From Acidobacteriota bacterium (GTDB taxonomy: Bacteria > Acidobacteriota > Terriglobia > Acidiferrales > UBA7541): a stretch of 47,846 nucleotides of DNA. Below, one piece after another: positions 2,482 through 39,743 of this stretch; within the stretch, counting starts at the first letter, position 1, and each line of letters opens with the position of its first letter. The notes beneath the pieces are model-generated. The model worked only from the letters and a program-made list of their open reading frames with translations. It did no database searches and was not told where the DNA came from. The position numbers were made by a program, and so were the translations under genes. The stretch spans positions 1 to 47,846 of the forward strand of contig QHYH01000170.1 of NCBI GenBank assembly GCA_003223215.1. The letters are read 5' to 3'.

Positions 2482-2560
2482 GTATGCGTTCCTGGCGATT
2501 GACGGGCAACCCTTCCATAATCCGGTAAGGTAAGGGTTGCCGACAACTCGTCCCGAACTG
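2482..2560 (+). repeat. extragenic foldback repeat, subfamily 1, copy A
   Basis: A 10-base arm GGCAACCCTT is followed about 17 bases later by its exact reverse complement AAGGGTTGCC. The outer flanks (GTTC..GG.CGA on the left, TCG.CC.GAAC on the right) extend the imperfect inverted repeat to about 27 bases per side. The same arms and core recur near 11970, 15328 and 20607. Confidence 0.7.
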
Positions 2561-2741: not shown

Positions 2742-2761
2742 GCGTCGCGGTGTTTGTGCAG

Positions 2762-6603: not shown

Positions 6604-7010
6604 GGGTTTCCCTTCAGGATTGTGCTGAGTCCATTCTTGCTGAAAGCGGACACGCGTCAATGCCAAGGGCGCTCAGATCTATTCTGCAACGTTGCAGACG
6701 CGATTTCCCATTTTTCTACGGGAAGGCGCTCGCTGAGGTTCATTCGTCGATGTCTTGCGGCCTTCTGATCCTATTGGCGGGGGCCGTTGGGCGGCTGAGT
6801 CGTTTGCCGACAACTCGCCCAGAATCGCACGGTGCGGTTAGCGAATACAGCCCTTATCGCAATCCGTCAGGACGTCTGTTCAATTCTCAATCCGAGAAGC
6901 ACCTGATTAACTGTCATTCGGAAGCGACTAACCTGCAGGGATAGCTGGCTCGCGAAACATTCGCTTGACTCCTCATCCACGGCGTCGTTCAATATGTTGC
7001 CGTGCCATAT
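6604..7010. other. intergenic gap with half a foldback repeat
   Basis: Divergent gap between the oxidoreductase and the PadR gene. It holds the right arm of the subfamily 1 repeat (TTGCCGACAACTCGCCCAGA at 6804-6823) but no convincing left arm. Open frames here have no recognisable content. The promoters of both flanking genes should lie in this gap, but no box stands out. Confidence 0.5.
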
Positions 7011-7355
7011 ATGGACCAGACAGCCTCACAAGTGGAATGGAAAAAGGGTAGCGCCGAGTTGCTCATTCTTTCGCTCGTCGAAGCCCGTCCGCGCCACGGT
7101 TACGAAATCAGCAAACTTATCGAGCAACGCTCTGGCGGCACTGTTCGTTTTCACGTCGCCTCGCTCTACCCGTTGCTCTACCGTCTTGAACGCCGCGGCT
7201 GGCTGTGTGGACGCTGGGTCGAAAAAAGCGGACAGCGCCGCCGCCGTTACTATCGTCTGACGCGCCAGGGCCGCAAAGTCCTCGCTTCACAGCTTCGCGG
7301 CTGGCACGAATTTGTAGTCGGTATTAATCGCATCACCGAGGCAGAAAATGCTTGA
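7011..7355 (+). CDS. PadR-family transcriptional regulator
   Basis: This is a winged-helix regulator of about 114 residues. The PadR signature is clear: [21 protein letters not shown] (helices 1-2), the recognition helix and turn [17 protein letters not shown], and the wing [13 protein letters not shown]. The protein probably acts as a dimer that represses its own operon. It overlaps the start of the following ADOP gene by 8 bases, so the two are translated together. The start is ATG 7011; an in-frame GTG at 7002 is also possible and neither has a strong Shine-Dalgarno. The inducer is unknown. PadR-ADOP pairs are a recurrent acidobacterial arrangement. Confidence 0.9.
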
Positions 7356-10143
7356 ATGGAAGCCGGAAATTCTCCGCCGCCTTGCCCCGCTGAAACTCTC
7401 CCCGGCACGCGAAGGGGAAATTGCCGAAGAGATCGCGCAGCACCTTGAGGATCGCTACCACGAACTCCTCGTGACTGGCCAGTCCGAAGACGCAGCTTTC
7501 CGCACCGCCATCGACGAACTGAAAGGCGAAGACCTGCTCGCGCGCAGCCTCCTAGCAGTCGAGAATGATTTGTATCGCGAGCCCGTAGCGTTGGGAAAGG
7601 GTAGCAGCAACTTGTTCGCTGGCATTCTTCAAGACATCCACTATGCCTTCCGCATGATGCGCAAATCCCCCGGCTTCACTGCCGTCGCTGTACTCACCCT
7701 CGCTCTCGGCATCGGCGCTAACACCGCCATCTTCAGCCTCATCAATGCCATCATACTCCGATCTCTTCCCGTCAAGGATCCGCAGCACCTTGTGCTTTTC
7801 CAATGGGAGAGCGACAAATGGCCTCCGCATTTCTCGATGACGGGCTGGAAGTCGCGATTTTCCTTTTCGTATGAGGAGTTCAGAGAATTCAGCGCCCAAA
7901 AGAATGTGATGTCCAGTGTTTTCGCGCTCGCGCCACTAGGTTTTAACGACCAGGACACCACCGTGGGCATCAACGGCGAGCCCACGCTGGCCGACGGCGT
8001 GATGGTCACAGGCCAATATTTTTCTGGACTTGGTGTTACTCCGCTTTTGGGGCGCGGTATCACCGATGCCGATGAAAAACCTGGCGCGCCGCGCGCGGTG
8101 GTGATCAGCTATGCGTATTGGACGCGCCGCTTTGCCCGCGATCCCTCCATCATCGGCGAGAGCGTCACGCTGAATGGCATCCCATTTACCATCGTCGGCG
8201 TCACGCCTCGAGATTTCTATGGCATCTCCGTTGGCACCGAGCCGGATTTGTGGGTTGCGTTCGACGACAAACCCAATATGCGCCCTTGGAGCAAGCCTCC
8301 CGGCGGCACGGATTCCGTTTTCACCGAGCGCGATTGGCTGTGCCTCAACATTATGGGGCGTCTGAAGGATGGCGTAACCAGAGAGCAAGCGCAAGGCGCG
8401 CTTGACGCCGTATTTCATCAATTCGTCACCGCAGATTGGCACCCGCCCAAAGAAAGCGACATCCCGCATTTCATCCTAGCTCCAGGCGGCCAGGGTCTGC
8501 CGGTGGTGCAGGACTACACCGCGCAGCCGATTTACTTGTTGATGGTGGCCGTCGGGCTCCTGCTGCTGATTGCTTGCGCGAACGTCGCGACGCTCTTGCT
8601 CGCGCGCGCCAACTCGCGCAAAAAGGAAATCAGCGTGCGCCTGGCCATCGGCGCGTCGCGTTCGCGCCTGATTCGCCAATTGCTCACGGAAAGCGCGCTT
8701 ATGTCTGCGCTAGGCGGACTCCTGGGATTAGTTTTCGCGAATTGGGGCACACAGGCGCTCATCGCGCTAATCTCGAGAGCCAACAACGGAACGATGATCC
8801 TCGATGCCGGCACGGACTCACGTGTTCTTTTCTTCACGTTTCTGGTCGCGATGCTCGTCGGAGTTCTGCTTGGCCTCGCCCCTGCCCTGCGCGCATCGAA
8901 AGCCGACCTCCTGTCCGCCATGAAGGACAACGCGTCCGCCGTTTCGGATCCACGCAACAAGCATCGCCTCGGCGAATCGCTCATCGTCGCGCAAGTCGCT
9001 GCGTCGGTGGTGCTCATGATTGGTGCCGGCCTTTTCGTGCGCACGCTCACCAATTTTGAGAGTCATAATTTCGGATTCGACCAGCGCAATCTCCTCACAT
9101 TCGGCCTCGCTCCCACCCGCGCCGGCTATCACGACGCCCGACTCGTGAATCTTTATACGCAGTTGCTGGATCGTATCCAGGCTCTTCCCGGAGTCCGCGC
9201 CGCAACCCTGATCGAAAACGCGCCGTTCTCCGGCTGGTCAAGTAAGAACTCCTCTGTCAGTGTAGAAGGTTCAGCACAGAATCCGAGCAATTCGGAGATG
9301 TACTGGCAAGGGGTAGGTCCGGATTTCTTCAGCACCATGGGCATTCCGATTGTTCTTGGCCGCGGCATCCAACGCACGGACACCGCAGCTTCTCCCAAGG
9401 TCGCCGTGGTCGACGAGATTTTCACAAAAAAATATTTTCCGGCGGAAAACCCCATCGGCCACCGTTTTAGCCTGAGTTCGAAATACGACCCCGCAAACTC
9501 CTATGAAATCGTCGGAGTCGTCCGGCCCGCCGAACTCACCGACGTGAACCCAGGCGTCCACCCCAAGGGCTACGCGTCGTATGCGCAATTCCCGAAAACA
9601 CTTGGCCAAATGTTCTTCGAGGTTCGCGCCGAGGGCCCTCCCGCAACCATTGTTTCTGAATTGCGCAACGCGGTACATCAAACAGATGCATCCCTGCCGC
9701 TCATCGGCCTAAAGACGCAAGCAGAAGAAACCAGTGAGGCCCTTTCCTTCCAGCGCTTGTTCGCCCGCCTCACGACGATTTTTGGCTTGCTCGCACTGCT
9801 CCTCGCGATGATCGGCCTCTACGGCATGATCGCCTATGCCGTGACGCGCAAAACGCACGAAATCGGCATTCGCATGGCGCTCGGAGCAAAACCAACGAAC
9901 ATACTTGGCATGGTCCTCCGACAGGGAATCACACTCACTCTAATCGGCGTAGCGTTTGGCGTCGTCGCCACTCTTGGCGCCACCCGACTCATCAGCAGCA
10001 TGATTTTCGGCGTCTCGCCCTATGATCCGTTAACGTTCGTCGCGGTGGCCGCGATCCTATCTATCGTCGCGCTGCTCGCCTGCTACATCCCCGCACGCCG
10101 CGCGATGAAGGTCGATCCCATGGTGGCGCTGAGATATGAATAG
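7348..10143 (+). CDS. PadR-linked ADOP permease, full length
   Basis: This is a complete ADOP permease of 931 residues. Residues 1-90 form the cytoplasmic helical prefix typical of PadR-linked ADOPs ([18 protein letters not shown]). The segment [17 protein letters not shown] is followed by membrane helix 1 at about 111-138 ([13 protein letters not shown]). Then come the first periplasmic domain, the first FtsX core ([32 protein letters not shown]), the second periplasmic domain, and a last FtsX core with [17 protein letters not shown] and the tail [13 protein letters not shown]. Its start overlaps the PadR stop by 8 bases, indicating one operon. No ATPase is nearby. Function is inferred only as a membrane permease or mechanotransmission-type protein. 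Confidence 0.92.
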
Positions 10144-10298: not shown

Positions 10299-10342
10299 CA
10301 TTCCTGGCCGTCCCTCCCGAGTGACGGGCAACCCGGAACTTG
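10299..10342 (+). repeat. foldback repeat, left arm only, copy C
   Basis: CATTCCTGG at the outer edge and GTGACGGGCAACCCGGAACTT match the left arm seen in the full copies. The GGAACTT extension resembles the core of subfamily 2 rather than subfamily 1. No right arm follows before the hydrolase gene. Confidence 0.5.
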
Positions 10343-10524
10343 AGCGCCGCTGACGGCGGTGTTCTCCGATTACTTCCTGTTGGCCGATCAAACCGCCCGG
10401 TGGCGAACCCATACCGGGATTGTGAGGGCGCGATTTATCGCCTGCTGCGACAGCGTGGGCAATACTGACCAAATGCGCGGGCCTACGCGTATCATGAGAG
10501 GAAGACTGCATCGCGGAGCTAAAC

Positions 10525-11644
10525 ATGATCAAGAAGACTCTCAAATATGGCGGGATCGCGATTGTCTGCTTGATAATTGTGACGCTCGCATCGGCGCTGC
10601 TGTATAGAAAATATCTGCAACACGAAGTTTCTGAAGCGCGCGCCATTCGTTCACCCAGCGGCATCGACAGCCTTGAGGCCGTCCGCATCGGCGGCATCGA
10701 TCAGTGGATCGAAGTGCGAGGCCAAAACGTGAATAACCCGATTCTTCTGTTCATCCATGGTGGGCCCGGCGTCGCGTTTATTCCCATGGGAAGCACTTTT
10801 CAGGATCCCTGGGAGAAATACTTCGCCGTGGTGCAATGGGACCAACGCGGAGCGGGAAAAACGTACGAGTCGAACGACAAAGAACTCCAGCGCCGGACGA
10901 TGAATCTCGCGCAAATGGAGCAGGACACGGTAGAAGCGGCGAACTATCTGCGAACTCGATTCAAGCGAGAAAAGATATTTGTGGTGGGGCACTCGTGGGG
11001 AAGCATGCTAGGCCTCTGGCTGGCGCACGAGCATCCGGAAATGGTTTATGCGTTTGTGGGCACCGGGCAGGCAGTGAGTATGCAGCAGAACGAGGAGGCG
11101 GGATACCGTATCGTGCTGCAAGCAGCACGCAACACCAAAAATGAACGGGCGATTAAGGAATTGGAAAGCGTCGCCCCTTATCCTCCCGCAATCCCAGACA
11201 TGAATAAAACCGGCACAGTAAGAGATTGGGAGTCGAGTTTACTAGGGCCGCCGCCGAGCGAGACGGGCTTTACGAATGTGAAAAGAATTTTGAGAACGGT
11301 GATCTCCGCTCCGGAATATTCGATCGCCGATGATATCGGTTTTGTCCGCGGGCAAACGTTTTCGCTTCAAGTGATGATGCCTCAGATGATGGAATTCGAT
11401 CTGACCAAACTTGGTCCCTCCTTCCGCGAGCCACTTTTCTTTTTTGAAGGAAGGATTGATCCCTACTGCCCTGGTTCGGTGATTGCGGATTACGTTCAAA
11501 CGATCAATGCGTGCGCCACAGCAGGAGATTGTGTGGTTTGAAAATTCCAGCCACTTTCCTTTTTATCAAGAAAAACAGAAGTTTACGGACGAATTGGTCC
11601 GGCGCGTGTTGCCACTCGCCGACGATCGCCGCACCGCCAATTAA
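10525..11644 (+). pseudogene. alpha/beta hydrolase (proline iminopeptidase-like), frameshifted
   Basis: This is a membrane-anchored alpha/beta hydrolase related to proline iminopeptidases. An N-terminal hydrophobic helix spans about residues 9-27. The oxyanion motif HGGPG is at 78-82, WDQRGAGKT follows, and the nucleophile elbow GHSWGS places Ser at about residue 157. The uninterrupted frame stops at 11541 with the odd tail ACATAGDCVV. Shifting frame near 11513 restores a sensible C-terminus through PQQEIVWFENSSHFPFYQ, supplying the expected catalytic His, and ends at 11644. A one-base insertion around CGTGCGCC explains it. As written, the product lacks its catalytic His; a sequencing error is equally possible. 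It stands alone on the plus strand. Confidence 0.75.
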
Positions 11645-11969: not shown

Positions 11970-12050
11970 GATTCGGATTGTGGGCGGATCACGGGCAACC
12001 CTTCCACAATCCGCGCAAGGTAAGGTTAGCCGACCACCCGCCCAGAATCG
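11970..12050 (+). repeat. extragenic foldback repeat, subfamily 1, copy D
   Basis: The outer arms GATT.TGGGCGG (left) and CCGCCCAGAATC (right) and the inner arms ACGGGCAACCCTT and AAGGTTAGCCGAC are imperfect reverse complements. The core CCACAATCCGCGCAAGGT is nearly the same as in copies A and F, and in the same orientation. Confidence 0.7.
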
Positions 12051-12086: not shown

Positions 12087-12154
12087 TTGCGCGCGCGATG
12101 GCCCTTGCAGTGCTGGTTGGTCATGCAATCGTCAAGCATTTATCAGGAGCAATC

Positions 12155-12898
12155 ATGGGTCAAGATAGTTTTATTCCGGTTGCAACCAATGCCAGGTCGC
12201 GAAGCGACCTCGTCGAGCGCGGGTTCAGTCGTCAGCCGCTCAGGGTTGATGTAGACATAGCGCGCTCGCTGGAAGCGTTATCCCATGCCGCCTGGTCCGT
12301 TCCAAAGGACAAATACTACGATGAGGGCGACAGGTATCGTTCCTTAAATCGTGTCAGGGCCGAGATTGTTGAGGGCGGTGTAAAGGTTTGGTTGAGCGAA
12401 GAGAGCACGCCCTATGTGCAGCTGAAAAAATACAACACGACAATCGGCGGCCAGCCGCGAGAGTACGCTCCGCTGCCCCCGGCGATCGCCGGTTCCATAG
12501 GCGTTCGCAAGATGATTGCTCACCACCTCTATTACCTACCGCTGTCGACGGTGGGTACGAAGTATTTGGTCAACGTTCACCTAATAAGGTTCACGGCTAC
12601 GCCTGGCCGGCCGTGCGACACGAGTCCACCGGGTTTACATAAAGACGGCGAAAAGTACATCGCCACGCATCTAGTGGGCCGCTGCGGCGCTCAGGGTGGC
12701 GAAGTCATCATAACCGACAATGGCAAGCAGGAAATGGATCGCTTCACGATGCGCGAATCGGGTGAGTGTTACGTCTTCGACGATGATCGCATCTGGCATA
12801 TGTTGACGCCAGTGGCCGTACTGGAAGGCAATCAGTACGCCTACCGTGACACGCTGGCATTCGATATGCTGCCAGAGGGCTGGGAACCCGTGAAGTGA
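12155..12898 (+). CDS. 2-oxoglutarate/Fe(II) dioxygenase, BsmA/IDO-like (PF10014 type)
   Basis: This is a soluble Fe(II)/2-oxoglutarate oxygenase of 247 residues. It resembles the family that includes the Bacillus isoleucine 4-hydroxylase and BsmA proteins, which hydroxylate free amino acids. The facial triad is visible: His162 and Asp164 in LHKDGEKYIATHL, and His215 in DDDRIWHMLTPV. Arg231 (AYRDTL) probably binds the 2-oxoglutarate carboxylate. The ATG at 12155 is chosen because AGGAG lies 5 bases upstream; an upstream in-frame start at 12098 would add 19 hydrophobic residues and overlaps the likely leader. It is monocistronic. The real substrate cannot be deduced from sequence. Confidence 0.82.
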   Translation: MGQDSFIPVATNARSRSDLVERGFSRQPLRVDVDIARSLEALSHAAWSVPKDKYYDEGDRYRSLNRVRAEIVEGGVKVWLSEESTPYVQLKKYNTTIGGQPREYAPLPPAIAGSIGVRKMIAHHLYYLPLSTVGTKYLVNVHLIRFTATPGRPCDTSPPGLHKDGEKYIATHLVGRCGAQGGEVIITDNGKQEMDRFTMRESGECYVFDDDRIWHMLTPVAVLEGNQYAYRDTLAFDMLPEGWEPVK

Positions 12899-12992
12899 TC
12901 GGAGACGGAGGGACTCGAACCCCGGCACGGGTGTTAGCCCGTACAACGGTCTGGCAAATTCAGCTAGTCCTCTGCCGGCATCAGATCACTTC
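12892..12992 (-). tRNA. tRNA-Ser-like element inside a 9-bp closing stem, probably degenerate
   Basis: Read on the minus strand, the 3' part resembles a class II tRNA-Ser. It has a long variable-arm hairpin ACGGG-CTAACA-CCCGT, a T-arm with GGTTCGAGTCC, and an acceptor-like CCGTCTCC. The 5' acceptor strand GGAGACG and a clear anticodon arm are missing. The whole element is closed by a perfect 9-bp inverted repeat, GAAGTGATC at 12892-12900 and GATCACTTC at 12984-12992. It overlaps the stop codon of the dioxygenase gene and lies downstream of the convergent SBP56 operon. It could be a tRNA pseudogene, a tRNA-derived attachment remnant or a structured 3' end. Confidence 0.4.
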
Positions 12993-13015
12993 CGGTTAGC
13001 CGACCGCTGGGAAAC
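12991..13015 (+). repeat. foldback repeat, right arm fragment, copy E
   Basis: TCCGGTTAGCCGACCGCTGGG matches the right arm of the foldback family (compare GGTTAGCCGACCACCCGCCC in copy D). It abuts the closing stem of the tRNA-like element; no left arm is present. Confidence 0.4.
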
Positions 13016-13035: not shown

Positions 13036-13689
13036 CTATATCAGGAGGGTAACAAGACCCGTAGCCACGAGCGCGGCTGCCCATACCAGGTCGAAGTTGA
13101 GCCACGCCTTGCGCAAAAGTGCGAGGCCGAGCTTTCGATACACCACCCATGCGAGCAGCCCTGTAACCGCGAGGTAGGCAACCGTATGGACGCCAGTGGC
13201 GAGCATTCCGGCGAGTGGTGCGACGGTTTGAGAAATATGATTGTGGCCTGCAATTCGGCTCTGTGCTTCGACTGTGTTGCTGCGCAGTAGCACCGGCACA
13301 ACCATCAAACCGGCGCCGTGAGCAGAGGCCATCAGAAACGACCAGACGGTTAAGTCTCGGAACCCCACCTGCATGCGGACCCACCTCGGGTGCCGATGTC
13401 GCATCAGGCAATAAATTCCCATGCCGACCAGGAGCGCAGCGACTAAGTAGCGGATGACGATGAGGGGCAGCGTCATGCCGAGGAACACAGAAGTCAGCAC
13501 AACGCTGCCGATGGCCACCGCGTGGCCAACTGCAATGGGAATGAGCGATCTCGCTACTGCGCTCCCCTTTTGCTCCTGCATCCCCAGCGCGACCGCGAAG
13601 AGCCAACCCATTCCGGGATTGAGTCCGTGGTAGGCGCCGAGGAGCAGCATCAGCCACAACATTGTCGAAGTCAGGCCGGCATGTGTCAT
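13036..13689 (-). CDS. His-rich polytopic membrane protein coupled to SBP56
   Basis: This is an integral inner-membrane protein of about 217 residues with six predicted helices. His residues recur in or next to helices: AYHGLNPGMGW, IAVGHAVAIG, ASAHGAGLM, AGHNHIS and TGVHTVAYL. The pattern recalls LysE/NicO-type transporters but I cannot assign a family firmly; similar proteins are sometimes labelled ArcD-like in databases. Its ATG (13689) overlaps the TGA of the upstream SBP56 gene as ATGA, so translation is coupled. An upstream TTG at 13707 is a less likely start. The context suggests delivery or export of a metal or sulfur compound linked to SBP56, which is inference. Confidence 0.75.
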   Translation of the reverse strand: MTHAGLTSTMLWLMLLLGAYHGLNPGMGWLFAVALGMQEQKGSAVARSLIPIAVGHAVAIGSVVLTSVFLGMTLPLIVIRYLVAALLVGMGIYCLMRHRHPRWVRMQVGFRDLTVWSFLMASAHGAGLMVVPVLLRSNTVEAQSRIAGHNHISQTVAPLAGMLATGVHTVAYLAVTGLLAWVVYRKLGLALLRKAWLNFDLVWAAALVATGLVTLLI

Positions 13690-15098
13690 TGCGGGTCCGA
13701 GTAACAATAAGAGTCCGACGAAGCGTCGCCCCCTTGTAGCCGCACCTGGTGTGCGCGCAACCCGTCGAACTCGACAAAAAACTTTTCGTCGAGCTTCATC
13801 CCGCCCTTTGAGTCCAAATCGACTTTCGCCATCCAGCTCTTAATGCCATCGAGATAAAACTGCTCGTCCCACGGGGAGTAGAGGGAGTTGGTAAAGTAGC
13901 CGCGCTTGCCGTCGCGGCTGATCTCGACCATCTGCGGACCGCCATTGAGAGCCACGCTAGGCTTCTTCGGGTGGGCAGCGCGGCGAACGATCCCACCGAG
14001 GTGGATCGAACTGGTTTTCTTCGGGTTGGCGGGATCGGAGACGTCATATTGGATGAACTCGCCTGTCCCCCAGCAGGAAACATAGAGGAAGCGGTCGTCA
14101 AGCGAGAGATTGATGTCGGATACTAACGGCGGCACTGCCTTGAAGCCCTTCAACAGGGGTGGCAGTTTCTCCGGATCGGCCGGTTCGGCGGGAATTTCAA
14201 TTACCTTTCGAACTGCCCACTTGCTGTTCTTACCGCCGTCCTCGCGGTACCACATCCAGATGGAGGACGAAAGATCTTTCAGGGAGATGACAACACCGAC
14301 GAATCCGAAAGTTTGCATTGGGTCATGGGAGGGGCGCAGCTCCAGCACCATCTGTTGCTCCGCACCTAGGTCAATTTCTTGCAAGTGGTGGCGCTTATCC
14401 AAATTCCAGATGTGCAGCTTGCGACCGTATTTTCCCCCAAGCAGCAACTCCGGGTTGAGGCCGTCCTTCACCATATTCGGGGTGCCCCATTCGGAGGTGA
14501 TCAGGGTGTCGTGACCGAGGTGCCACCAGAAATCGTATGCCAGATTCTGAGGGCCGTGGTCCTTCTCCCACGGGCCCTTCAGCTCGAACGTATCGGGATC
14601 CATCAGGAAGATTCCGCCGGGACCGTCGCCGCTGGCCGAGCCGAGCGCGCTGCCATAGATGGCGTCCGGGCCACAATGAATGGTATGCGGCGATGTGTAG
14701 CCTGTCTTCTTGATGAACTCTTCCGTCTCAATCACCTTCACGATCTTGGGATGCTTGGGGTCCGCTTTGGTATCCAGGATGTGAATCCGGGACGACCCGA
14801 TGCCCGGAACGATCAGGTAACGACGCTCCATGTGCGGGTGGGGAGCTTGCGGGCAGAGGCACGCGCTGCACGCGTTCCAGCCGAAGTGATGCAGCTCATT
14901 ATCGCCGTTGGGAAAATCCACCTGGCCGAGGAGCTGACCATACGTGGAGGAGCCAGGCTCGAGGTCGATGACGCTCATGGCGTCGCGCTTCCCGTTCTTG
15001 CCGACGTTAAGCAGAGCGACGTAAGCGATTTGCTCCGGCGCGGCCTTCATCGCCATGCCCGGCGATGGGTAAAAGGTTGGGTCTGGCATTATGGACAT
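13686..15098 (-). CDS. selenium-binding protein SBP56 / methanethiol oxidase family
   Basis: This is a beta-propeller enzyme of about 470 residues in the SBP56/SELENBP1 family. Characterised members oxidise methanethiol to formaldehyde, H2S and H2O2, using copper. Family landmarks are HHFGWNACSACLC near residue 75, IVPGIGSSRIHILDT, HTIHCGPDAIYGSALG, SEWGTPNM, LVSDINLSLDDRFLYVSCWG and LNGGPQMVEISRDGKRGYFT. No signal peptide is visible, unlike periplasmic MtoX proteins. A strong AGGAGG lies 8 bases before the ATG at 15098; an in-frame ATG at 15104 lies too close to that site. It is the first gene of a two-gene minus-strand operon with the His-rich membrane protein. Confidence 0.9.
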   Translation of the reverse strand: MSIMPDPTFYPSPGMAMKAAPEQIAYVALLNVGKNGKRDAMSVIDLEPGSSTYGQLLGQVDFPNGDNELHHFGWNACSACLCPQAPHPHMERRYLIVPGIGSSRIHILDTKADPKHPKIVKVIETEEFIKKTGYTSPHTIHCGPDAIYGSALGSASGDGPGGIFLMDPDTFELKGPWEKDHGPQNLAYDFWWHLGHDTLITSEWGTPNMVKDGLNPELLLGGKYGRKLHIWNLDKRHHLQEIDLGAEQQMVLELRPSHDPMQTFGFVGVVISLKDLSSSIWMWYREDGGKNSKWAVRKVIEIPAEPADPEKLPPLLKGFKAVPPLVSDINLSLDDRFLYVSCWGTGEFIQYDVSDPANPKKTSSIHLGGIVRRAAHPKKPSVALNGGPQMVEISRDGKRGYFTNSLYSPWDEQFYLDGIKSWMAKVDLDSKGGMKLDEKFFVEFDGLRAHQVRLQGGDASSDSYCYSDPQ

Positions 15099-15327
15099 AT
15101 CCATCTCCTCCTTTAATAAAGTTACGGCGAAGGTTTGCCCCCGGCCAATCTTTCACACGGCGTCACGCAGTCAGAGGGCGATAAGGGCTGCAAGGACCCG
15201 CGATCCTGCCGACAGCCAAAGGCCCACGTGCCTCTTGGTCGCTGAAAGCATAACTCGTCACGTTATCACTGGCCAGCTGCTCCTTTTAGAATCTGATTCC
15301 CCGTAACCGTTCAGCGGTATTCCAGCC

Positions 15328-15401
15328 CATTCCGGCCGGATGACGGGCAACCCTTCCATAATCCGGGCAAGGTAAGGTTAGCCGACAATACGTCCGGAAT
15401 G
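15328..15401 (+). repeat. extragenic foldback repeat, subfamily 1, copy F (74 bp)
   Basis: This is the cleanest copy. Its ends CATTCCGG and CCGGAATG are an exact 8-bp inverted repeat. The inner arms GACGGGCAACCCTT and AAGGTTAGCCGAC are imperfectly complementary, around the core CCATAATCCGGGCAAGGT. Copies A and D share the core almost base for base. Confidence 0.75.
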
Positions 15402-15622: not shown

Positions 15623-16069
15623 ATGAACGTACAAGAACAAATCAAGAAGTATATTACCAGCCAACCGGAGCCAAAACGCAGTGACATGCGAGAGTTGCAT
15701 CGGCTCACACTTCAAGTGTCACCAGAATGCAAATTATGGTTCTTCGATGGTAAAGACAGCAAAAATCATACTGTTTCCAACCCTACGCTTGGATATGGAT
15801 TTCACACAATAAAATATGCCAATGGAAAAAGGAGAGAGTTTTTTCAAATTGGTGTGAGCGGAAACAAAACCGGAATCTCTGTCTATATTCTTGGTCTCAA
15901 AGATAAGAAGTACTTAGCCAAAACGTATGGGAAAAAACTAGGCAAGGCGAGCGTGACCGGATATTGCATTCGGTTTAAAGCTCTAAAGGATATAAACATC
16001 GATACGCTTGAAGCGGCAATACGATATGGGCTTGCAGCTCAGAATGAAAAAGGCAAGCTGATGAAATAA
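15623..16069 (+). CDS. DUF1801/YdhG-like protein
   Basis: This is a small soluble protein of 148 residues, matching from memory the DUF1801 (YdhG-like) group: KLWFFDGKDSKN, NPTLGYGFHTIKYANGK, FFQIGVSGNKTGISVYILGL and GKASVTGYCIRFK. The biochemical role of the family is not established. A GGGGAGC Shine-Dalgarno lies about 9 bases before the ATG. The gene is visibly richer in A and T than its neighbours, with many AAA, AAT and ATA codons. This suggests recent transfer from a lower-GC donor. It is followed by a gene-free stretch and then a recombinase pseudogene. Confidence 0.8.
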   Translation: MNVQEQIKKYITSQPEPKRSDMRELHRLTLQVSPECKLWFFDGKDSKNHTVSNPTLGYGFHTIKYANGKRREFFQIGVSGNKTGISVYILGLKDKKYLAKTYGKKLGKASVTGYCIRFKALKDINIDTLEAAIRYGLAAQNEKGKLMK

Positions 16070-16318
16070 TTCTACTGTTAAAGGCAAGCAGTTATCGATG
16101 TAAAGGCGCCCCAGTATACGACCCCTACAGCCCTGACCCGCGCCACAAAGCCATTCTCTATAAAGCGGGTCTCCCGCAATAGTCGTGCGGCTCTCTGTCA
16201 GCGCTCCTTGCCTTTCTCTGTTTGCCGTTGCCCACTGCGGAAGTATCACGGGCTAACCTGAACTTACCTCCTGCGAAACCACTCTAATTATTGATCGATG
16301 GCATGGAGGCCACCGATC

Positions 16319-17243
16319 ATGAAGCACAGACCAACTTCCAGAAGAAGACGCAGAAGCACAAGGTCCGTCTTGCGCCTGCTTGATCTCGAACACTCCAAAA
16401 CGGCAGTCTTGAACAGCCTCACTTCTCAGGATGCGCAGCGGGGATATCGTCACGCGATCGATGAATTCGTTGATTGGTATTGCTCAGAACCGCGTTTGGC
16501 ATTCAATAGAATAGTCGTTCTGCGCTACCGATCTCATCTCGAATCTCGTCGACTCGCGCCCGGCACCGTCAATCTACGACTGGGTGCCGTACGCCGTCTT
16601 GCGTATGAGGCAGCCGATTGCGGTCTACTGAGTGCCGACCTGGCAGCAGGTATTCGTCGCGTTAAAGGCGTGAAGAAGTTAGGCGTTCGCCTTGGCAACT
16701 GGCTGACTGCAGAGCAGGGGCAAGCGCTTTGGCAAGCGCCTGATCGCGATCGGCTGAAGGGAAAACGAGACCGCGCTTTGCTGGCTCTCCTGCTTGCGTG
16801 TGGGTTGAGAAGACAAAAAGCCGTCGCACTGACCTTGGATCATCTCCAGCAGCGGGAGGAACACTGGGCCATCGTCGACTTGATGGGTAAGGGAGGTCGC
16901 GTTCGAACAGTCCCGGTTCCGGACTGGGTCAGAAGCGAATTAGAAGTGTGGCTTAATGCGGCCGGCATTGATCGAGGAAGGTTGTTTCGCAGGGTCAACA
17001 AAGTTGGAAAAGCATGGGAAGAGGGCATGACGGTAAAGGCGGTTTGGCACATAGTGAAGGAGTCTGCGAGGACCATTGGTGTCGCCAAATTAGCGCCGCA
17101 CGATCTGCGTCGGACCTGTGCTCGGCTCTGCCATGCTTCGGGAGGGGCACATCTCAGTTCAAACTACCGAACGGTACCTTGGGTGCAAGCAACGGATTCG
17201 ATCAGCAGTCAATGACCGCATTGGCATCGAGCCGAGTCCTTGA
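16319..17243 (+). pseudogene. tyrosine recombinase, inactivated by a C-terminal deletion/frameshift
   Basis: This is a XerC/D-like tyrosine recombinase closely related to the intact minus-strand gene at 38748-39695. The N-terminal SAM-like domain (LLDLEHSKTAVLNSL, SEPRLAFNR) and much of the catalytic domain (ALLLACGLRR, LAPHDLRRTCARLCHASGG) align throughout. After SGG the frame runs into unrelated residues and stops at 17215. Another frame resumes with GHISVQTTERYLGCKQ and ends at 17243. Comparison with the intact copy implies loss of about 29 bases coding for ELEQIQFLL, which removes the LLG of the LLGH motif and puts the Tyr of ERYLG out of frame. The ATG at 16319 has GGAGG 9 bases upstream. 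The gene should be catalytically dead. Confidence 0.8.
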
Positions 17244-17398
17244 GCTGGGTGCAACGGCTATGGAAGAGTGGCCGACCACTGTAACCTCGTTCTTCGTCTC
17301 ATGCAGGAGCGACACACGCTGAAGACGCGCGGCCGACCTGTTGTGTTCCCAATGAGTGTGGAGTATGCTTCCTGTTGGAAACCAAAAGGGCGTTGGCA

Positions 17399-17746
17399 AT
17401 GAAACGCAAAACGGACGTTCCTCAAGGCACTTTGGCGCTGATGATCCTTAAGACTCTCGACGTCCTCGGCCCGCTGCATGGTTACGGTATCGCCCGACGA
17501 ATCGAGCAGATCAGCCGGGACGTGCTCGCCGTGAATCAAGGCACGCTCTATCCGGTGCTGCTGAAGCTGGAGCAGGAAGGTTCGATAGTTTCCGAGTACG
17601 GCGCCTCAGAGAATAATCGTCGGGCGCGCTTCTATCGTTTGACACGGGACGGACGCAAGCAGTTGCAGGCTGAGCTCCGAGATTGGGAGCAAACCGCAGG
17701 GATCATCGGGCGATTCTTTGAATTGAAGGCGGAGGATTTGTCATGA
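17399..17746 (+). CDS. PadR-family transcriptional regulator
   Basis: This is a winged-helix repressor of 115 residues, close to the common acidobacterial PadR consensus: PQGTLALMILKTLDVLGPLH then GYGIARRIEQ, the DNA-contacting NQGTLYPVLLKLEQEG, and the wing RARFYRLTRDGRKQL. The C-terminal helix (ELRDWEQTAGIIGRFF) should mediate dimerisation. The start is ATG 17399, with AAAAGGG about 8 bases before; an in-frame TTG at 17375 would add eight residues. The stop overlaps the following ADOP start as ATGA (17743-17746). It probably represses this pair in response to an unknown ligand. Confidence 0.92.
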   Translation: MKRKTDVPQGTLALMILKTLDVLGPLHGYGIARRIEQISRDVLAVNQGTLYPVLLKLEQEGSIVSEYGASENNRRARFYRLTRDGRKQLQAELRDWEQTAGIIGRFFELKAEDLS

Positions 17747-20538
17747 GGGACCTGAGGCGGTTCCTCAAAAGATTTAGGAACATGGTGACAAGGCGGCGCA
17801 ACGACGAGCGACTGAAAGAGGAAATTGAGGAGCATATCGCCCTGCAGACGGCAGAGTATATGAAAGCGGGACTGCCGCCCGCGGAGGCGCGCCGGCAAGC
17901 GTTGCTGAAGTTTGGCGCAGTAGAGGCGATTAAGGAAGAATATCGGGCTCAAACAGGATTGCCATTTGTAGAGACTCTGCTTTACGACACGCGCTATGCG
18001 CTGCGTCGATTGCGGAAGTCACCGTCATTCACCATTACGGTGGTCCTGACGCTGGCGCTGGGCATTGGTGCAACAACTTCTATTTTTACTCTGTTCTACG
18101 ATGTTCTGCTGAAATCGCTGACAGTGGCTAATCCGGGCGAATTGTACCGCCTAGGCAAAGAGGCACGTTGCTGCTACTGGGGCGGATACAGCCAAGAGAA
18201 TGAGTATTCCCTTGTCTCCTACGAACTCTACAAACATTTTCGGGACCACACCCAGGGTTTTGCGCAATTGGCGGCGTTCCAGGCTGACGATCCGCTGTTG
18301 GGTGTGCAACGTTCCGGCGGCACAGAGTCAGCACAAAGCTATCCTGGTGAGTTCGTTTCGGGGAATTACTTCACCATGTTCGGCATAAGCGCGTATGCCG
18401 GACGGCTGCTGACTTCCACGGACGATCAACCCGGCGCTCCGGCGGTAGCAGTGATGAGCTATCGCCTGTGGCAGCAATACGGATCGGACCCGTTCATCGT
18501 TGGCGCTGTCTTCAACATAGATAACACGCCATTCACCATCGTAGGAATCACTCCACCCAGCTTCTTTGGCGATACGCTTCGCAGCGAGCCGCCCGATTTC
18601 TTTCTGCCGCTCAACTCGGAAACATTGGTGCCTCAAGCGGATGCTGGCGATCTTAATCAGGCTGACCAGTATTGGCTGGATTTGATCGGACGCATCAAAC
18701 CCGGCGCTGAGCCCACATCAATAGAGGCTCAAATGCGGGTGGAACTGAAGCAGTGGCTGCTTTCGTACCAGAGCGAGATGAGCGCGAACGATCGCGCGAA
18801 GTTACCCGAGCAAACGCTGTTCCTGCGCCCCGGAGGCTCGGGAATCACCAGCATGCGCGCGGAATATGAACACTGGCTTCATATCCTGATGATGGTGTCG
18901 GCGTTTGTGCTGCTGATTGTCTGCGCCAACGTGGCCAATCTGATGCTTGTTCGCGGCATGCAGCGGCGAAGGGAGACATCTTTGAGCGTAGCACTAGGCG
19001 CGCACACGTCGCGCCTTGTGAGGCAGGCTCTTACGGAGAGCATTCTGCTCTCACTTGCGGGAGGCATGACAAGTCTGGTCATCGCATTTGCCGGTACGCG
19101 CCTTATTTTGCTTTTTGCATTTCCATCGGCCCGGGGCGCAACAGGTATACCGATCAACGCGTCCCCTTCCATGCCAGTGTTGTTGTTTGCTTTCGGCGTT
19201 TCTTTGGTCGCGGCCGTGGTCTTCGGCATCGCTCCTGCATGGATGACCACGCGGGTAGATCCGATTGAAGCCCTTCGGGGAGTGAGCCGCTCCACCGCTC
19301 GCACAGGTGCGCTTCCCCGCAAGATGCTGGTGGTATTCCAGGCAGCTCTTTCATTGGTATTGCTGGCAGCATCCGGATTACTGACAGCTGCTGTGCACCG
19401 GTTGGAGAGTCAACGCTTTGGCTTCCTCCAGGAGCAGCGCACGATCGTCAGGATTGATCCAGGTCTGATCGACTATCAACCAAACCAGTTCACCACACTA
19501 TACGATCGGATCCGCGACTCATTATCCAGCATTCCCGGCGTAGCTGCCGCGGCGATCTGCCAGTACGCCCCGCAGAGCGGAAATAATTGGGCTACCAGCG
19601 TGTGGGTGAACGGGCGTCCGGCTCCCGGGCCTAACGAGGATAATGTTGAAAACATGGTTTACTGGGATCGGGTGACGCCAGGATACTTCAGCGCTATCGG
19701 AACTCAAATCATCGAAGGACGAAGCATCTCTGAGGAAGATACAGCGACTTCGCAGCATGTGGCGGTGATCAATGAGGCGTTCGCGAAGAAGTATTTCAAC
19801 AAGGAAAACCCGATTGGACAATACTTCGGACGTCCGGAACTGGAATCACCGCGTCTCTACAAAATCGTAGGTGTAGCGCAAGACGCACGCTACCTCAACT
19901 TCGATTTCGACAAGCCGATTGGTCCATTCTTTTTTCTGGCCGAAGCGCAGCACGACGTGGTGCCAAAGACTGGGGGAGACAGCAATCCCGGCTCGCATCA
20001 CCTGCACGACATCATCCTTGTGACGCGGCCTGGCGCCACTGTATCCGCTGCGGCAATACGCCAAGCGATAGTTTCGGTAGATCCCCGTCTGCCGATCGAG
20101 TCGATAGGAACTTTGGGTGAGCAAGTATCCAACCAGTTCCGGCAACAGCGGCTGATTGCAAAGTTGTCATCCTTCTTCGGAGTGCTTTCGCTTGTCCTCG
20201 CTTCCATTGGACTATACGGAGTTACTTCCTATAACGTCGGACAACGCACAACTGAGATTGGGGTGTGCTTTGCACTCGGCGCTACTCCCGCGCAGGTGGC
20301 AATCCTCGTAATCCGAAGAGCGTTGGCCCTGGTAGCTGTCGGTCTGGCTCTTGGATTTCCGGTGGCTTTGGCAGCGGGCAAGTTCCTGGGCAGCCAACTG
20401 TACGGATTAAATCCGTATGACCCCGCGGCGACTCTCCTGGCCATCCTGACACTCAGCTTCTCAACGCTTGTCGCAGCATTCATTCCCGCTCTGCGGGCAA
20501 GCAGGATATCTCCGTCGGAAGCGCTGCGCGCCGAATAA
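17743..20538 (+). CDS. PadR-linked ADOP permease, full length
   Basis: This is a complete ADOP permease of 931 residues, translationally coupled to the PadR gene. Residues 1-80 are the charged cytoplasmic helical prefix (NDERLKEEIEEHIALQT). YDTRYALRRLRKSPSF leads into membrane helix 1 at about 98-122 ([13 protein letters not shown]). The first FtsX core has LIVCANVANLMLVRG and VALGAHTSRLVRQALTES; the last has TEIGVCFALGATPAQV. The C-terminus RISPSEALRAE diverges from the MVALRYE tail of the other copies. A CC pair (EARCCYWGG) in the first periplasmic domain is not seen in the paralogues here. There is no ATPase partner, and the substrate is unknown. Confidence 0.92.
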   Translation: MRDLRRFLKRFRNMVTRRRNDERLKEEIEEHIALQTAEYMKAGLPPAEARRQALLKFGAVEAIKEEYRAQTGLPFVETLLYDTRYALRRLRKSPSFTITVVLTLALGIGATTSIFTLFYDVLLKSLTVANPGELYRLGKEARCCYWGGYSQENEYSLVSYELYKHFRDHTQGFAQLAAFQADDPLLGVQRSGGTESAQSYPGEFVSGNYFTMFGISAYAGRLLTSTDDQPGAPAVAVMSYRLWQQYGSDPFIVGAVFNIDNTPFTIVGITPPSFFGDTLRSEPPDFFLPLNSETLVPQADAGDLNQADQYWLDLIGRIKPGAEPTSIEAQMRVELKQWLLSYQSEMSANDRAKLPEQTLFLRPGGSGITSMRAEYEHWLHILMMVSAFVLLIVCANVANLMLVRGMQRRRETSLSVALGAHTSRLVRQALTESILLSLAGGMTSLVIAFAGTRLILLFAFPSARGATGIPINASPSMPVLLFAFGVSLVAAVVFGIAPAWMTTRVDPIEALRGVSRSTARTGALPRKMLVVFQAALSLVLLAASGLLTAAVHRLESQRFGFLQEQRTIVRIDPGLIDYQPNQFTTLYDRIRDSLSSIPGVAAAAICQYAPQSGNNWATSVWVNGRPAPGPNEDNVENMVYWDRVTPGYFSAIGTQIIEGRSISEEDTATSQHVAVINEAFAKKYFNKENPIGQYFGRPELESPRLYKIVGVAQDARYLNFDFDKPIGPFFFLAEAQHDVVPKTGGDSNPGSHHLHDIILVTRPGATVSAAAIRQAIVSVDPRLPIESIGTLGEQVSNQFRQQRLIAKLSSFFGVLSLVLASIGLYGVTSYNVGQRTTEIGVCFALGATPAQVAILVIRRALALVAVGLALGFPVALAAGKFLGSQLYGLNPYDPAATLLAILTLSFSTLVAAFIPALRASRISPSEALRAE

Positions 20539-20606
20539 GAATCTTTTTACACTCAACCGCTTTAGGGACAAGCCGCGTTCATCGACGAGTCCGCTGGTAA
20601 TTGAGT

Positions 20607-20676
20607 GTCCTGGGCGGGTGACGGGCAACTCTGACGTAACCAGATTTAGGTAAGGGTTGCCGACAAGCCAGAAGTG
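20607..20676 (+). repeat. extragenic foldback repeat, subfamily 1, copy G
   Basis: TCCTGGGCGGGTGACGGGCA on the left and AGGTAAGGGTTGCCGACAAG on the right match the arms of copies A, D and F. The core (TCTGACGTAACCAGATT) has diverged. Orientation is the same as in the other complete copies. Confidence 0.6.
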
Positions 20677-20795
20677 ATCGCGCAAAATGGAGGTAATTAG
20701 GCCGACACTCCTGTACCTCAAGTATGTTTCTAAGGACAGATTGTCTGGCAGCATCAAAATAACGCCCTCATTCTCAGCGAGGAGACTAAGTCCCC

Positions 20796-22844
20796 ATGAA
20801 ACGAACCATGTTAGCCGGCCTACTGCTAGGGCCCGTTTCCGTGCTCCTATCGAGCGGAATATCTTCTAAACCGCGGCAGCTCAATGCTCAGGCTGTCGCG
20901 CCCGCGCCTTCCGGCGCAAACGCAGCTTGGACCCTGAAGGTGAAGGGGGACATCCGCTGGCAGCAGGTCACGCCGATGGGCGCTCTCCTCGTCTCGACGG
21001 ACGCCGCGCTAGCGGCTGTCGATATCGAGCGTGGCCAGGTCATGTGGGAGAAGCCTGAACTCGGCGGGTTGCCGGCCGACAGCGTCCACATGGTCGAGGG
21101 CTCTCTCCTCATGGAAGCGACGCGCCCTGGCCTGCTGGTGATTTTTGACCCTGTGACCGGTGCCGTCGTCTTCGATTCCCACCGACTGAACCTGGCGCAA
21201 ATCGTTACCCGCCGCGTTCTGCCGCAGAGCGGCAGCCTTCTCGTCCATGGGCGACGCCCGGACGGGCCTTCGGTCGTTGCGCTCTACGATCTCGTGACGG
21301 GCGAACAGCGTTGGACGAACGAATCGCTTTTTGAGCAGGCCGAGCCCAAGAAGAAGGGCTTCGGTGCCCTGATGCAGGGCTTACAGCGCACGGCTGCCGA
21401 GGGCACCGCGCTGGAGGTTCTGCAGGCCGGACCTGACATGATCGTCGTCCACACGCTGATGGGTCTGCGCGCTCTGGACGCGCGGACCGGCGCAGTCCGG
21501 TGGTCCGCAACCTCGACCACCAACCGTTGGGCCCAACCCCCGCGACACGTGCGGCTCTATCCGTCGCTCAACAAAACCGATCGCATTTATGCGAGCTTCG
21601 ACGACCACCTCATGGCCTACAGCCTCGCTGACGGTCAGGCGCTCTGGGCCAAGCCCGCAAGTGTGGAGGGAAATATCCGCGATATCGTCCAGCATCCGGC
21701 TGGGATCGTCATGCTTCCCGAGGCGCCGCCGGAAGGTGAGCCAACGCGCAGCCGCCGCGTCATCAACGGAGTTGTTCAAACAGGTCTCAACGTGGCTCGC
21801 TACGAAGACGGGACAACGGTCGCCGCAAAGCCACTCCGTATGCACGGCAAGGTGATCGACGCGATGGTCGCCGGCGACGCCGTGGTACTCGCCGTCGACG
21901 CCGAATCGCGCACTTTCGTGAACGTGCTGGATGTGGCCACGGCGACGCTGCGCCTGAAGAAGGATGTGAAGATCAAGGGCCAGCTCGCCTACACGGAGCT
22001 CGCGCCGGGGGGCCTCCTCTACGTATCACGTCCCGACGCCACGATAAACGCCGAGGTCAACATCATCGATCTCGCGACCGGTGAGCCAAAATTCAAGGAC
22101 GCTATTGAAAGCGGCAAGCCGTTGAGTACGGACGACTACAATGCTGCGCGGTACTACCTGCATCATGCAATAGAGGGGCGGACGCTTTACGTGTTTGCGA
22201 ACCGGGACCATCGACTATACGCCGTCGATCGCGAGGCTGGCACATTTCACGCCCTCAGCGCGGAAATCAAGCTTCAAGGGGGTGAGGATCCGACTGACAT
22301 GGAAGTCCGGCCGGCGGGCATTGTTCTCATCTCGCCGCAGAACCTGGTGCTCGTGGCGCGGGATGGGCAGGTGAAGCAGCAGGTTTATTATCCTGCGCCG
22401 CAACTTCCCGGGCTGGCGCGTGCGCTCTATGCCGTGAACGCTGTGCGCGCCGGCTTGTACGGCGCCGCCGCCTCGGCATATGGCGACGCCTTCACCCAAG
22501 CATCGCAGAAAACCTCGGATCCCAACGCGCGATACGTCACCGGGCAACTGGCGACGGCGTATTCGCAGTCCGGCGCACAGCTCACAGGCTACTCGCGCCA
22601 GTCGGCGGCGCTCGCGACGAAGCGCTTCAAGGCCTCGCTCACCGTCCCAGGATCAGTTTTCATGTTGACTCGCGCTCCCGAAGGAAACGGAAATGTACTG
22701 CTTCAGATCGACAAGGACAGCGGGCAGCCTCGCGCGCGCGTGGATCTGGGCAAGGAGCGTGAGCCGGTGTATGCAGTCGACGACGTCTCGGGCATGCTCT
22801 TCCTACGGACCACGCCGGGCACGCTCGTCGGCTACCGGCTCTGA
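20796..22844 (+). CDS. exported PQQ-type beta-propeller repeat protein
   Basis: This is a secreted or periplasmic protein of 682 residues. A signal peptide (MKRTMLAGLLLGPVSVLLSS) ends near LNAQA at about residue 32. The rest consists of repeated PQQ-like beta-propeller blades marked by phrases such as ALAAVDIERGQVMWE, VVALYDLVTGEQRW, LRALDARTGAVRWSA, LMAYSLADGQALWA, NIIDLATGEPKF and LYAVDREAGTFHAL. No catalytic residues of PQQ alcohol dehydrogenases are evident, so the role is more likely binding or scaffolding (compare BamB-like propellers). A GAGGAG Shine-Dalgarno lies close upstream. The gene stands alone behind the PadR-ADOP pair and the copy G repeat. Confidence 0.82.
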   Translation: MKRTMLAGLLLGPVSVLLSSGISSKPRQLNAQAVAPAPSGANAAWTLKVKGDIRWQQVTPMGALLVSTDAALAAVDIERGQVMWEKPELGGLPADSVHMVEGSLLMEATRPGLLVIFDPVTGAVVFDSHRLNLAQIVTRRVLPQSGSLLVHGRRPDGPSVVALYDLVTGEQRWTNESLFEQAEPKKKGFGALMQGLQRTAAEGTALEVLQAGPDMIVVHTLMGLRALDARTGAVRWSATSTTNRWAQPPRHVRLYPSLNKTDRIYASFDDHLMAYSLADGQALWAKPASVEGNIRDIVQHPAGIVMLPEAPPEGEPTRSRRVINGVVQTGLNVARYEDGTTVAAKPLRMHGKVIDAMVAGDAVVLAVDAESRTFVNVLDVATATLRLKKDVKIKGQLAYTELAPGGLLYVSRPDATINAEVNIIDLATGEPKFKDAIESGKPLSTDDYNAARYYLHHAIEGRTLYVFANRDHRLYAVDREAGTFHALSAEIKLQGGEDPTDMEVRPAGIVLISPQNLVLVARDGQVKQQVYYPAPQLPGLARALYAVNAVRAGLYGAAASAYGDAFTQASQKTSDPNARYVTGQLATAYSQSGAQLTGYSRQSAALATKRFKASLTVPGSVFMLTRAPEGNGNVLLQIDKDSGQPRARVDLGKEREPVYAVDDVSGMLFLRTTPGTLVGYRL

Positions 22845-22897
22845 TCGCTAGCGCTGAAAGTGACCTCTTTCGTAGCTGGTTAGCGGCGCATCTGGGG

Positions 22898-22978
22898 ATT
22901 GTGCCTGGATCACATTAGCGGGCCCGGGAGTTAACAAGAGAGCCTTCCAATTTCCGGATGGCCGACCGCCCGGAACGC
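22898..22978 (+). repeat. degenerate foldback repeat, copy H
   Basis: GATTGTGCCTGGATCA on the left and GGATGGCCGACCGCCCGGAA on the right resemble the outer arms of copy D. TTCCAATTTCCGG resembles the family core. The inner arms are poorly complementary. It lies in the convergent gap after the beta-propeller gene. Confidence 0.4.
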
Positions 22979-38747: not shown

Positions 38748-39695
38748 TCAAACGTCTTCCAGGCCCAGGTTGTCATTCACCGCGTGTCGCAGTTTCTGTT
38801 TGCATCCTAGATAATGCTCGGTTGTCTGAACGGACGAATGGCCAAGCAAGAACTGAATCTGTTCAAGTTCGCCCCCGGCCAAGTGACAGAGTCGTGCGCA
38901 CGTGCGACGTAGGTCATGCGGAGCGAGATTCTTGATGTCGCCACGTTTCGCAGCCGCTTTGACGATATGCCAGATGGCTTTCGGTGTGAGGCTTGCGCCC
39001 CATATCTTCCCCAGTCTGCCTACTCGCCGGAAGAGCACCCCTGTTCGGATGCTAGCTGCATCGGTCCACTCATCAACAATGCGCTTTGCCCACGCCGGAA
39101 CTGGCACCGTGCGAATGTGCTTTCCCTTGCCAATCAGGTCGGCGATCACCCAGTGCTCCTCACGGACTTGAAAATCTCCCAGTCCGAGTCCAACCAGTTC
39201 GGCGCGTCGCAGGCCGCATCCAATCAGCAGCGCCAGAATCGCTCGATCACGCTTGCCTTGCAAGCTGTCCCCTTGCGGCTCCGCGAGCAGGGTTTTGGAC
39301 TGTTCGACGGTCAGCCAGTTTCCGATCCGAACGCCCAGGCGTTTTGCGCCCTTAACTCGGCCGATGCCGGCTGCCAACTCGGGACTCAGGAGTCCAGTAT
39401 CAGCTGCCTCATGTGCGAGCCGTCTGACAGCCGCTAAGCGCACATTGATTGTGGAAGGTGCTAGATTCTTTTGTTCGAGAAAGAATCGATAACGAAGGAC
39501 CACACTTCGGTTAAACGCCAGGCGGGGCTCGGAACAATACCAACCGATGAATTCATCGATGGCATGCCCATACGATTCTTGCGAACTTGCGGCTGCGAGC
39601 GAGTTCAGAACTGCGTTCTTCGACTGTTCCAAGTCGGGCAGCCGAAGTATTGCTTTAGCCCTCGAGCGTTTGCTTGCCTTTTTCCGATGTCCCAT
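38748..39695 (-). CDS. tyrosine recombinase/integrase
   Basis: This is a XerC/D-like site-specific recombinase of 315 residues. The N-terminal core-binding domain includes LPDLEQSKNAVLNSL, SQESYGHAIDEFIGWYCSEP and NLAPSTINVRLAAVRRLAHE. The catalytic domain has Arg163 (GCGLRRAEL), His260 and Arg263 (PHDLRRT), His286 (LLGHSS) and Tyr295 (TEHYLG), all present. The longer open frame to 39881 is not protein-like and overlaps a repeat. The ATG at 39695 matches the broken paralogue, and GGAGG lies about 8 bases upstream. It is a solitary gene with no adjacent excisionase or cargo transposase. Confidence 0.9.
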   Translation of the reverse strand: MGHRKKASKRSRAKAILRLPDLEQSKNAVLNSLAAASSQESYGHAIDEFIGWYCSEPRLAFNRSVVLRYRFFLEQKNLAPSTINVRLAAVRRLAHEAADTGLLSPELAAGIGRVKGAKRLGVRIGNWLTVEQSKTLLAEPQGDSLQGKRDRAILALLIGCGLRRAELVGLGLGDFQVREEHWVIADLIGKGKHIRTVPVPAWAKRIVDEWTDAASIRTGVLFRRVGRLGKIWGASLTPKAIWHIVKAAAKRGDIKNLAPHDLRRTCARLCHLAGGELEQIQFLLGHSSVQTTEHYLGCKQKLRHAVNDNLGLEDV

Positions 39696-39743
39696 ACTGG
39701 CGGCCTCCCGCGCCGCGATCAGTATGGTCGTCCACAAGGACCC

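Follow-up and report, generated by a model that had tools for sequence, protein, structure and literature searches.

The repeat at positions 15328–15401 and its relatives are best read as site-specific recombination sites of an integron-like gene-cassette system with a Xer-like tyrosine recombinase, a reading that is based on sequence comparison and to which we give a probability of about 0.72. The window (the whole 47,846-nt stretch of DNA that was analysed) belongs to contig C111 of an 8.8-Mb genome, referred to here as G000. The repeats form arrays mostly in one orientation, cassettes recur with new neighbours, homology breaks at the sites, the inner arms co-vary, and half-sites often accompany the recombinase. 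In the proposed system, a cassette would extend from the crossover point in one core to that in the next. It would begin with TTGCCGAC and the right arm (consensus ATCCGCCCGGAATC), carry usually one gene, and end with the left arm (approximately GATT..GGCCGGATSACGGGCAAC) and the inner hairpin. The Xer-like recombinase would cut at or next to |TTGCCGAC and exchange cassettes; its substrate might be a folded single strand, as it is for attC sites. A role like that of attI might fall to the half-site that immediately follows the stop codon of the recombinase gene, with the gene reading towards the next cassette, and the short 75-bp sites would be the recombinase-less form.

The initial annotation had described four clear copies with common arms and core, and all four are in place in the window (sites A, D, F, and G in Table 1). 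The right-half motif GGTAAGGKTNGCCGAC gave 10 matches in the window with up to three mismatches, against 1.9 expected, and none of 100 shuffled sequences equalled this number; its four perfect matches are exactly these copies, all on the plus strand. The left-half motif ACGGGCAACYCT alone was not significant in the window at up to two mismatches (11 matches, 6.5 expected, 6 of 100 shuffles equal). The covariance model R1, which was built from 20 copies including these four, scores them at 71–87 bits. The degenerate copies that had been listed as well are upheld in part: several give weak R1 matches (near 6764, 10301, and 42255), whereas that at 12991 is a right half only and that at 22898 was recognised by eye only. 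In the genome-wide R1 search, the E values of 6764–6828 and 42255–42331 were 0.18 and 0.25, and 10301–10405 was absent from the matches listed. As had been stated, the clear copies sit between genes and in one orientation. In the genome, orientation agrees within contigs (C111, 4 copies; C29, 5; C112, 6; C215, 2; C85, 2). The window reads as a run of about nine cassette-like units between positions 2.5 and 23 kb, with several sites degenerate.

Table 1. Putative recombination sites, recombinase genes, and cassette or unit genes in the window
Feature	Positions	Strand	Support or remark
Recombination site A, complete (putative)	2484..2559	+	R1 86.7 bits
Gene in unit after site A: ADOP-type duplicated permease (MacB_PCD/FtsX)	2750..5257	+	
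Degenerate site, right half intact, inner part shortened	6764..6828	+	R1 17.8 bits
Unit: PadR regulator (7002–7355) and ADOP permease (7348–10143)	7002..10143	+	
Degenerate site	10301..10405	+	R1 15.5 bits; weight-matrix score 34 at 10309–10390
Cassette gene: alpha/beta hydrolase	10525..11541	+	
Recombination site D, complete (putative)	11973..12050	+	R1 73.1 bits
Cassette gene: 2OG-Fe dioxygenase	12098..12898	+	
Right half of a site only (TTCCGGTTAGCCGACC)	12990..13005	+	by eye
Cassette gene: selenium-binding protein SBP56, antisense to array	13686..15104	-	
Recombination site F (putative; the copy under study)	15328..15401	+	R1 76.9 bits
Cassette gene, DUF1801-like (below Pfam cut-off)	15623..16069	+	cassette end recurs in genome G041 (L094)
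Left half of recombinase-holding site	16233..16255	+	
Xer-like tyrosine recombinase, damaged near C-terminus	16319..17215	+	
Right half (diverged) of recombinase-holding site	17269..17286	+	
Unit: PadR regulator (17375–17746) and MacB_PCD/FtsX permease (17743–20538)	17375..20538	+	
Recombination site G, complete (putative)	20602..20680	+	R1 70.8 bits
Cassette gene: PQQ/beta-propeller protein	20796..22844	+	
Degenerate site	22897..22976	+	by eye only; R1 and weight matrix find none on this strand
Second, open tyrosine recombinase of wider family, 61% to first	38748..39881	-	no matching half-site seen beside gene
Degenerate site	42255..42331	+	R1 17.4 bits; weight-matrix score 37

Two further features of the window should be mentioned. 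A group II intron core (RF02005, 166 bits) lies at 5295–5516, directly after an ADOP permease gene. The minus strand of 12900–12989, between the 2OG-dioxygenase gene and a right half-site, resembles the 3' portion of a tRNA that has a long variable arm; it gives an Rfam match below cut-off to a plastid family, and ARAGORN finds no tRNA there.

With the clear copies of the window included, R1 matched 34 distinct places in G000 at E≤1e-3 (53 matches listed, less 19 that re-read near-palindromic copies on the other strand), and it found relatives in other genomes. The copies are clustered on C111, C29, and C112, in one orientation on each, and are dispersed as well. A cmscan of the window up to E 5 gave no match at any copy, so that the family stands outside Rfam, as had been supposed. 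With G000 counted, R1 matches were present in 26 of the 36 genomes of the genus and 21 of the 61 genomes of the family sample (E≤1e-3), and in 2 of the 159 genomes of the phylum sample (E≤1e-6), one of which is G000; R1 is tuned to this genus, and missing matches elsewhere are weak evidence of absence. The number of R1 matches grows with genome size among the 36 genus genomes (Spearman 0.60, counts including other-strand reads).

Sites were also located by a two-part weight matrix trained on known copies and run on 0.93 Mb of contigs, most of them picked for holding copies. At score 17 it gave 126 sites against 4 in the reversed sequence. Neighbouring pairs had the same rather than the opposite orientation in 37 versus 1 cases at a score of at least 28 (93 sites), 43 versus 3 at 26, and 46 versus 10 at 20. 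Sites scoring below about 26 include chance matches, 10 of the 56 neighbouring pairs at score 20 being opposite, and the minus-strand window sites at 8102 and 23802 belong to this class. Between same-orientation neighbours at score 26 there are 34 intervals shorter than 4.2 kb, the examined ones reaching up to 3.9 kb. An open reading frame is present in 33 of the 34, and in 22 of these 33 the longest one takes up 75% or more of the interval; its direction is sense in 22 cases and antisense in 11. A Pfam scan took in 20 of the 33 frames, 3 of which had no Pfam match. The cassette genes are unrelated to one another: amidase, Ser/Thr kinase, GreA/B, methyltransferase, glyoxalase, MacB-type permeases, TonB-dependent receptor, glycosyl hydrolase, and TctC receptor.

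If cassettes are exchanged at the core, homology between loci should stop there. Around 158 distinct sites (score at least 24) with up to 1.5 kb on each side, every homology of at least 100 nt between loci that touched a site in both was counted, giving 28. Four were out of register, a site being paired with the next site of the same cassette. Among the 24 in register, 3 cover the site only, 1 runs through (L153/L156, 78%), and 20 stop at the site; in other words, of 21 homologies that extend out of a site on one side, 20 end at it. Taking the base before TTGCCGAC as 0, the 13 homology starts are at -48, -41, -39, -38, -37, -35, -9, -5, -3, -3, 0, 0, and +22/+28, and the 7 ends at -22, +7, +8, +13, +14, +19, and +24. 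Since the conserved site lengthens matches, starts are lower bounds and ends upper bounds of the crossover, and the six starts from -35 to -48 only bound it because the inner sequences are alike there. Eighteen of the 20 breakpoints are compatible with one crossover at 0 to +7, the start of TTGCCGAC; the two exceptions are -22 and +22/+28. It should be mentioned that the homologies are partly dependent: L088, L107, and L186 share one cassette, and L018, L183, and L194 another.

Individual loci have the same geometry. The sequences of L018 and L194 are different as far as the core, and from TTGCCGAC onward they are almost identical. Three cassettes have both ends in sites and neighbours that differ on both sides. 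The GreA/B cassette of G029 is also present, at 96%, in G021, a genome of another genus; a methyltransferase cassette is common to G072 and G055, its right end being the -22 breakpoint; and a glyoxalase cassette is common to G000 and G065. The end of the DUF1801 cassette of the window recurs in G041 (97% over 282 nt), where a normal short loop takes the place of the recombinase and divergence sets in directly after the left core.

This pattern of breakpoints is the one that cassette exchange predicts, and it is contrary to movement of the whole repeat, as far as comparison of genomes can indicate. The repeats might otherwise be MITE-like non-autonomous elements that carry both ends of a recombinase element and transpose whole. 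The left and right halves do flank the recombinase gene as inverted element ends would, and copies are dispersed as well as clustered; on the other hand, the breaks in homology between genomes lie within the repeat, mostly near the core and away from the outer ends, the outer arms are unlinked within a copy, and the intervals are mostly single-gene units in one orientation. We consider such elements unlikely. Mixing of neighbours by homologous recombination or misassembly between dispersed repeats seems highly improbable. Most genomes compared are metagenome assemblies, and several contigs of G000 end close to a copy. However, beyond the 8-letter core next to the break, two sites at a resolved junction have little in common, which argues against misassembly, and a single point, as opposed to the whole 75 bp, accounts for 18 of the 20 breaks.

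Pairing of the arms within their own copy was compared with pairing across copies. Inner arms pair best within their own copy (own -6.98, cross -5.70, z=-5.2, n=89), also among 33 less alike sites (z=-3.4); among the 15 least alike sites the effect was not significant (z=-1.4), and subfamilies may contribute to the inner-arm signal. Outer arms gave no own-copy linkage (z=-0.15, n=93), in a test to which the conservation of these arms leaves little power. This difference is expected for cassette exchange because one cassette would carry both inner arms of a site, and the right outer arm would belong to the following cassette. The right arm of one site and the left arm of the next on the same cassette showed no significant linkage (z=-1.3, n=27). 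The complementarity of the outer arms that had been reported thus stands, as both follow a palindromic consensus, whereas each arm pairs no better with its own partner than with those of other copies; an outer-stem reading was rejected on these tests. By eye, a second type of right outer arm (approximately ATCCAGGAGTNA) occurs beside the main ATCCGCCCGGAATC type among 54 sites. Folds of three copies as single-stranded DNA gave z values of -1.5 to -3.3 over both strands.

A foldback with a co-varying inner stem, whose clear window copies lie between genes, could also be a structured RNA (riboswitch, terminator, or small RNA) that has been copied many times. The absence of Rfam matches at the copies, the unrelated neighbouring genes on both strands, and the lack of co-variation in the outer arms all speak against this, and sharp genomic breakpoints have no place in it, which makes it extremely improbable. 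An RNA family was also rejected as a candidate on the Rfam result and on the consensus fold, which has 9 pairs, 1 with a two-sided change. Among the options first put forward, a DNA signal, in the form of a recombination site, fits best. A structured RNA and a simple non-autonomous element are less likely because homology breaks near the core, the outer arms are unlinked, the intervals hold single genes, and Y1 transposases are unassociated.

The enzyme was sought in two classes, tyrosine recombinases in the array contigs (with seeds from G000) and Y1 transposases in G000. The latter were rejected as the mover: the window's contig holds none, as had been noted for the window, and only 1 of 9 Y1 matches in G000 lies within 5 kb of a copy. 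Two tyrosine-recombinase genes are present on the window's contig, one on each strand, and the family of the first, at 16319–17215, is the most recurrent one in the array contigs, where its genes are often broken. The likely enzyme of the sites belongs to this family; it is Xer-like and about 317 residues long. R164, K191, H261, R264, H287, and Y296 are invariant in all 13 intact proteins compared, and we take these to be the catalytic residues. The recombinase of L210 scores 108.5 of 329.6 bits against XerD and 106.1 of 335.15 bits against XerC, below both equivalog cut-offs, and the site-associated recombinase reaches 38.6 of 265 bits with the integron integrase model TIGR02249, over residues 238–307 only. 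Two other genes of G000 are read as its own XerC and XerD. A predicted structure of the recombinase was poor (pLDDT 54) and was set aside. Homologs of the recombinase occur in 17 of the 36 genus genomes, G000 included. G000 has four, among them the damaged one of the window and one on C199; the two others were checked and have no half-site. The gene of the window has lost the stretch before the His/Tyr end and its frame is shifted, so that its array probably depends on an enzyme elsewhere, or is stranded.

The link between recombinase and sites comes from their arrangement. The gene has the orientation of its nearest site in 5 of 6 cases (window 16319–17215, L190, L198, L199, and L200), the exception being window 38748–39881. 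A scan of public genomes kept 79 recombinase loci, all with Acidobacteriota titles and including the isolates Edaphobacter aggregans and Occallatibacter savannae. In 39 of the 79 loci the gene has a half-site at a fixed spacing on one side or both, 8 of them having both. The left half precedes the aligned start by about 120 nt, and the right half lies no more than 45 nt from the expected stop, where the chance rate for a right half is about 0.005 per 35 nt. The other 40 loci have no recognised half-site. Further sites in the 39 half-site loci are in the orientation of the gene in 13 of 14 cases (10 upstream, 4 downstream), and near the 40 remaining loci 6 are in that orientation and 3 opposite. 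Homology past the recombinase mostly ends at +8 to +19 from the core, and in a few comparisons at +33 to +53. Some genomes hold more than one recombinase, and half-sites occur both after the stop and, as left halves, before the gene. At L232 (Occallatibacter savannae), which is among these 40 loci, 3 sites are opposite to the gene (1841, 2157, and 6371, minus) and 2 are in its orientation (12858 and 14695, plus); they flank the recombinase on both sides and point away from it, which a single one-way array does not explain.

The right halves that accompany recombinases of other clades look different by eye. One such type, C (GGCCGACTTATNNNTACTAATCCG, up to three mismatches; GCCGACTTAT...TACTAATCCG), was found as 8 distinct sites, with none in the control; 3 of these sites are just behind a recombinase and the others away from recombinases. 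A pattern search for type B (GGCGACTTTACGTC) gave 17 distinct sites against 20 in the reversed control, which is like chance. A hairpin just before the ATG of the recombinase seems to hold the Shine-Dalgarno sequence GGAGG in its loop (L210, about 7975–8030). It was seen by eye at the same place in L209, L213, L214, L219, L220, and L228, where the stem letters vary and complementarity is kept, and it suggests translational control. A 63% homolog of the recombinase is on plasmid pACIX905 of Granulicella tundricola (L288), typed as conjugative; this is a possible route between strains.

We think it fairly likely that the sites represent a second, integron-independent gene-cassette capture system in Terriglobia, in which a Xer-like recombinase would reside inside its own site and exchangeable single-gene arrays would make up portions of large genomes of soil bacteria, two or more site specificities following the recombinase clades. 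Among natural systems that gather genes in the form of cassettes, integrons are the best known. If experiments confirm the present one, it would be a second bacterial gene-capture system, and integron logic built on a different enzyme and a different site would point to more than one origin of this solution. Such a system could account for some of the turnover of genes in very large Acidobacteriota genomes, and it would provide new tools for site-specific recombination. Searches that rely on IntI and attC motifs would presumably overlook these arrays. No description of these sites or of the system was found in open-licence PubMed Central papers. Excerpts of one paper report many short repeats and integrases in Solibacter and, within that text, link neither to the other (PMC3174227).

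Several known systems share parts of this organisation. The present repeats are short, extragenic, and foldback, as REP/RAYT elements and MITEs are; unlike in those, Y1 genes are unassociated here and breakpoints fall inside the repeat. G000 gives 81 tyrosine-recombinase matches, many of them in adjacent triplets that by eye resemble RIT elements, in which recombinases occur in a trio (C234, C149, C255, C265, C85, and C21). RIT proteins are described, in the excerpt available, as subgroups with added features (PMC8138268). The site-associated enzyme probably differs from them and is a single gene. In Xer/dif/pdif systems, gene modules are bounded by recombination sites. Such modules and a Xer-like tyrosine recombinase are present here as well, whereas the enzyme is far below the XerC and XerD cut-offs and the sites, unlike dif, are hairpins that mostly point the same way.

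The closest comparison is with integrons. The arrays could even be ordinary integrons or integrase-less attC clusters, that is, diverged attC sites served by IntI. The logic is the same (cassettes, one orientation, a hairpin site), and the breakpoint is next to GTT in about half of the sites. However, the R-box motif of attC is GTTRRRY, and it is present in 0 of 93 sites, 54 of which begin with GTT. None of the 61 family genomes has an IntI over the TIGR02249 cut-off (E≤1e-30; 30 candidates scored in the largest genomes, 30 of 129 in G000), and the associated recombinase is closer to XerD (108 bits) than to the integron model (38.6 bits, partial). This explanation therefore appears quite unlikely. 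Integrons with attC are recorded in Acidobacteriota in parts of two papers (PMC8618304, PMC8352920), so that the system proposed here would be a separate one in the same phylum. In Treponema integrons the integrase reads towards attI, according to an excerpt of PMC3607928, and the recombinase gene here likewise reads towards its site. As in integrons, cassettes stand in tandem, mostly in one orientation and mostly with one main open reading frame, a hairpin site lies at the cassette end with the breakpoint next to a GTT-like core, and, from sequence comparison, cassettes seem to move singly with breakpoints at the site core. Unlike in integrons, intervals reach up to 3.9 kb, a third of the main open reading frames are antisense, the repeats have conserved outer arms beyond the core, and the recombinase is flanked by the halves of a site.
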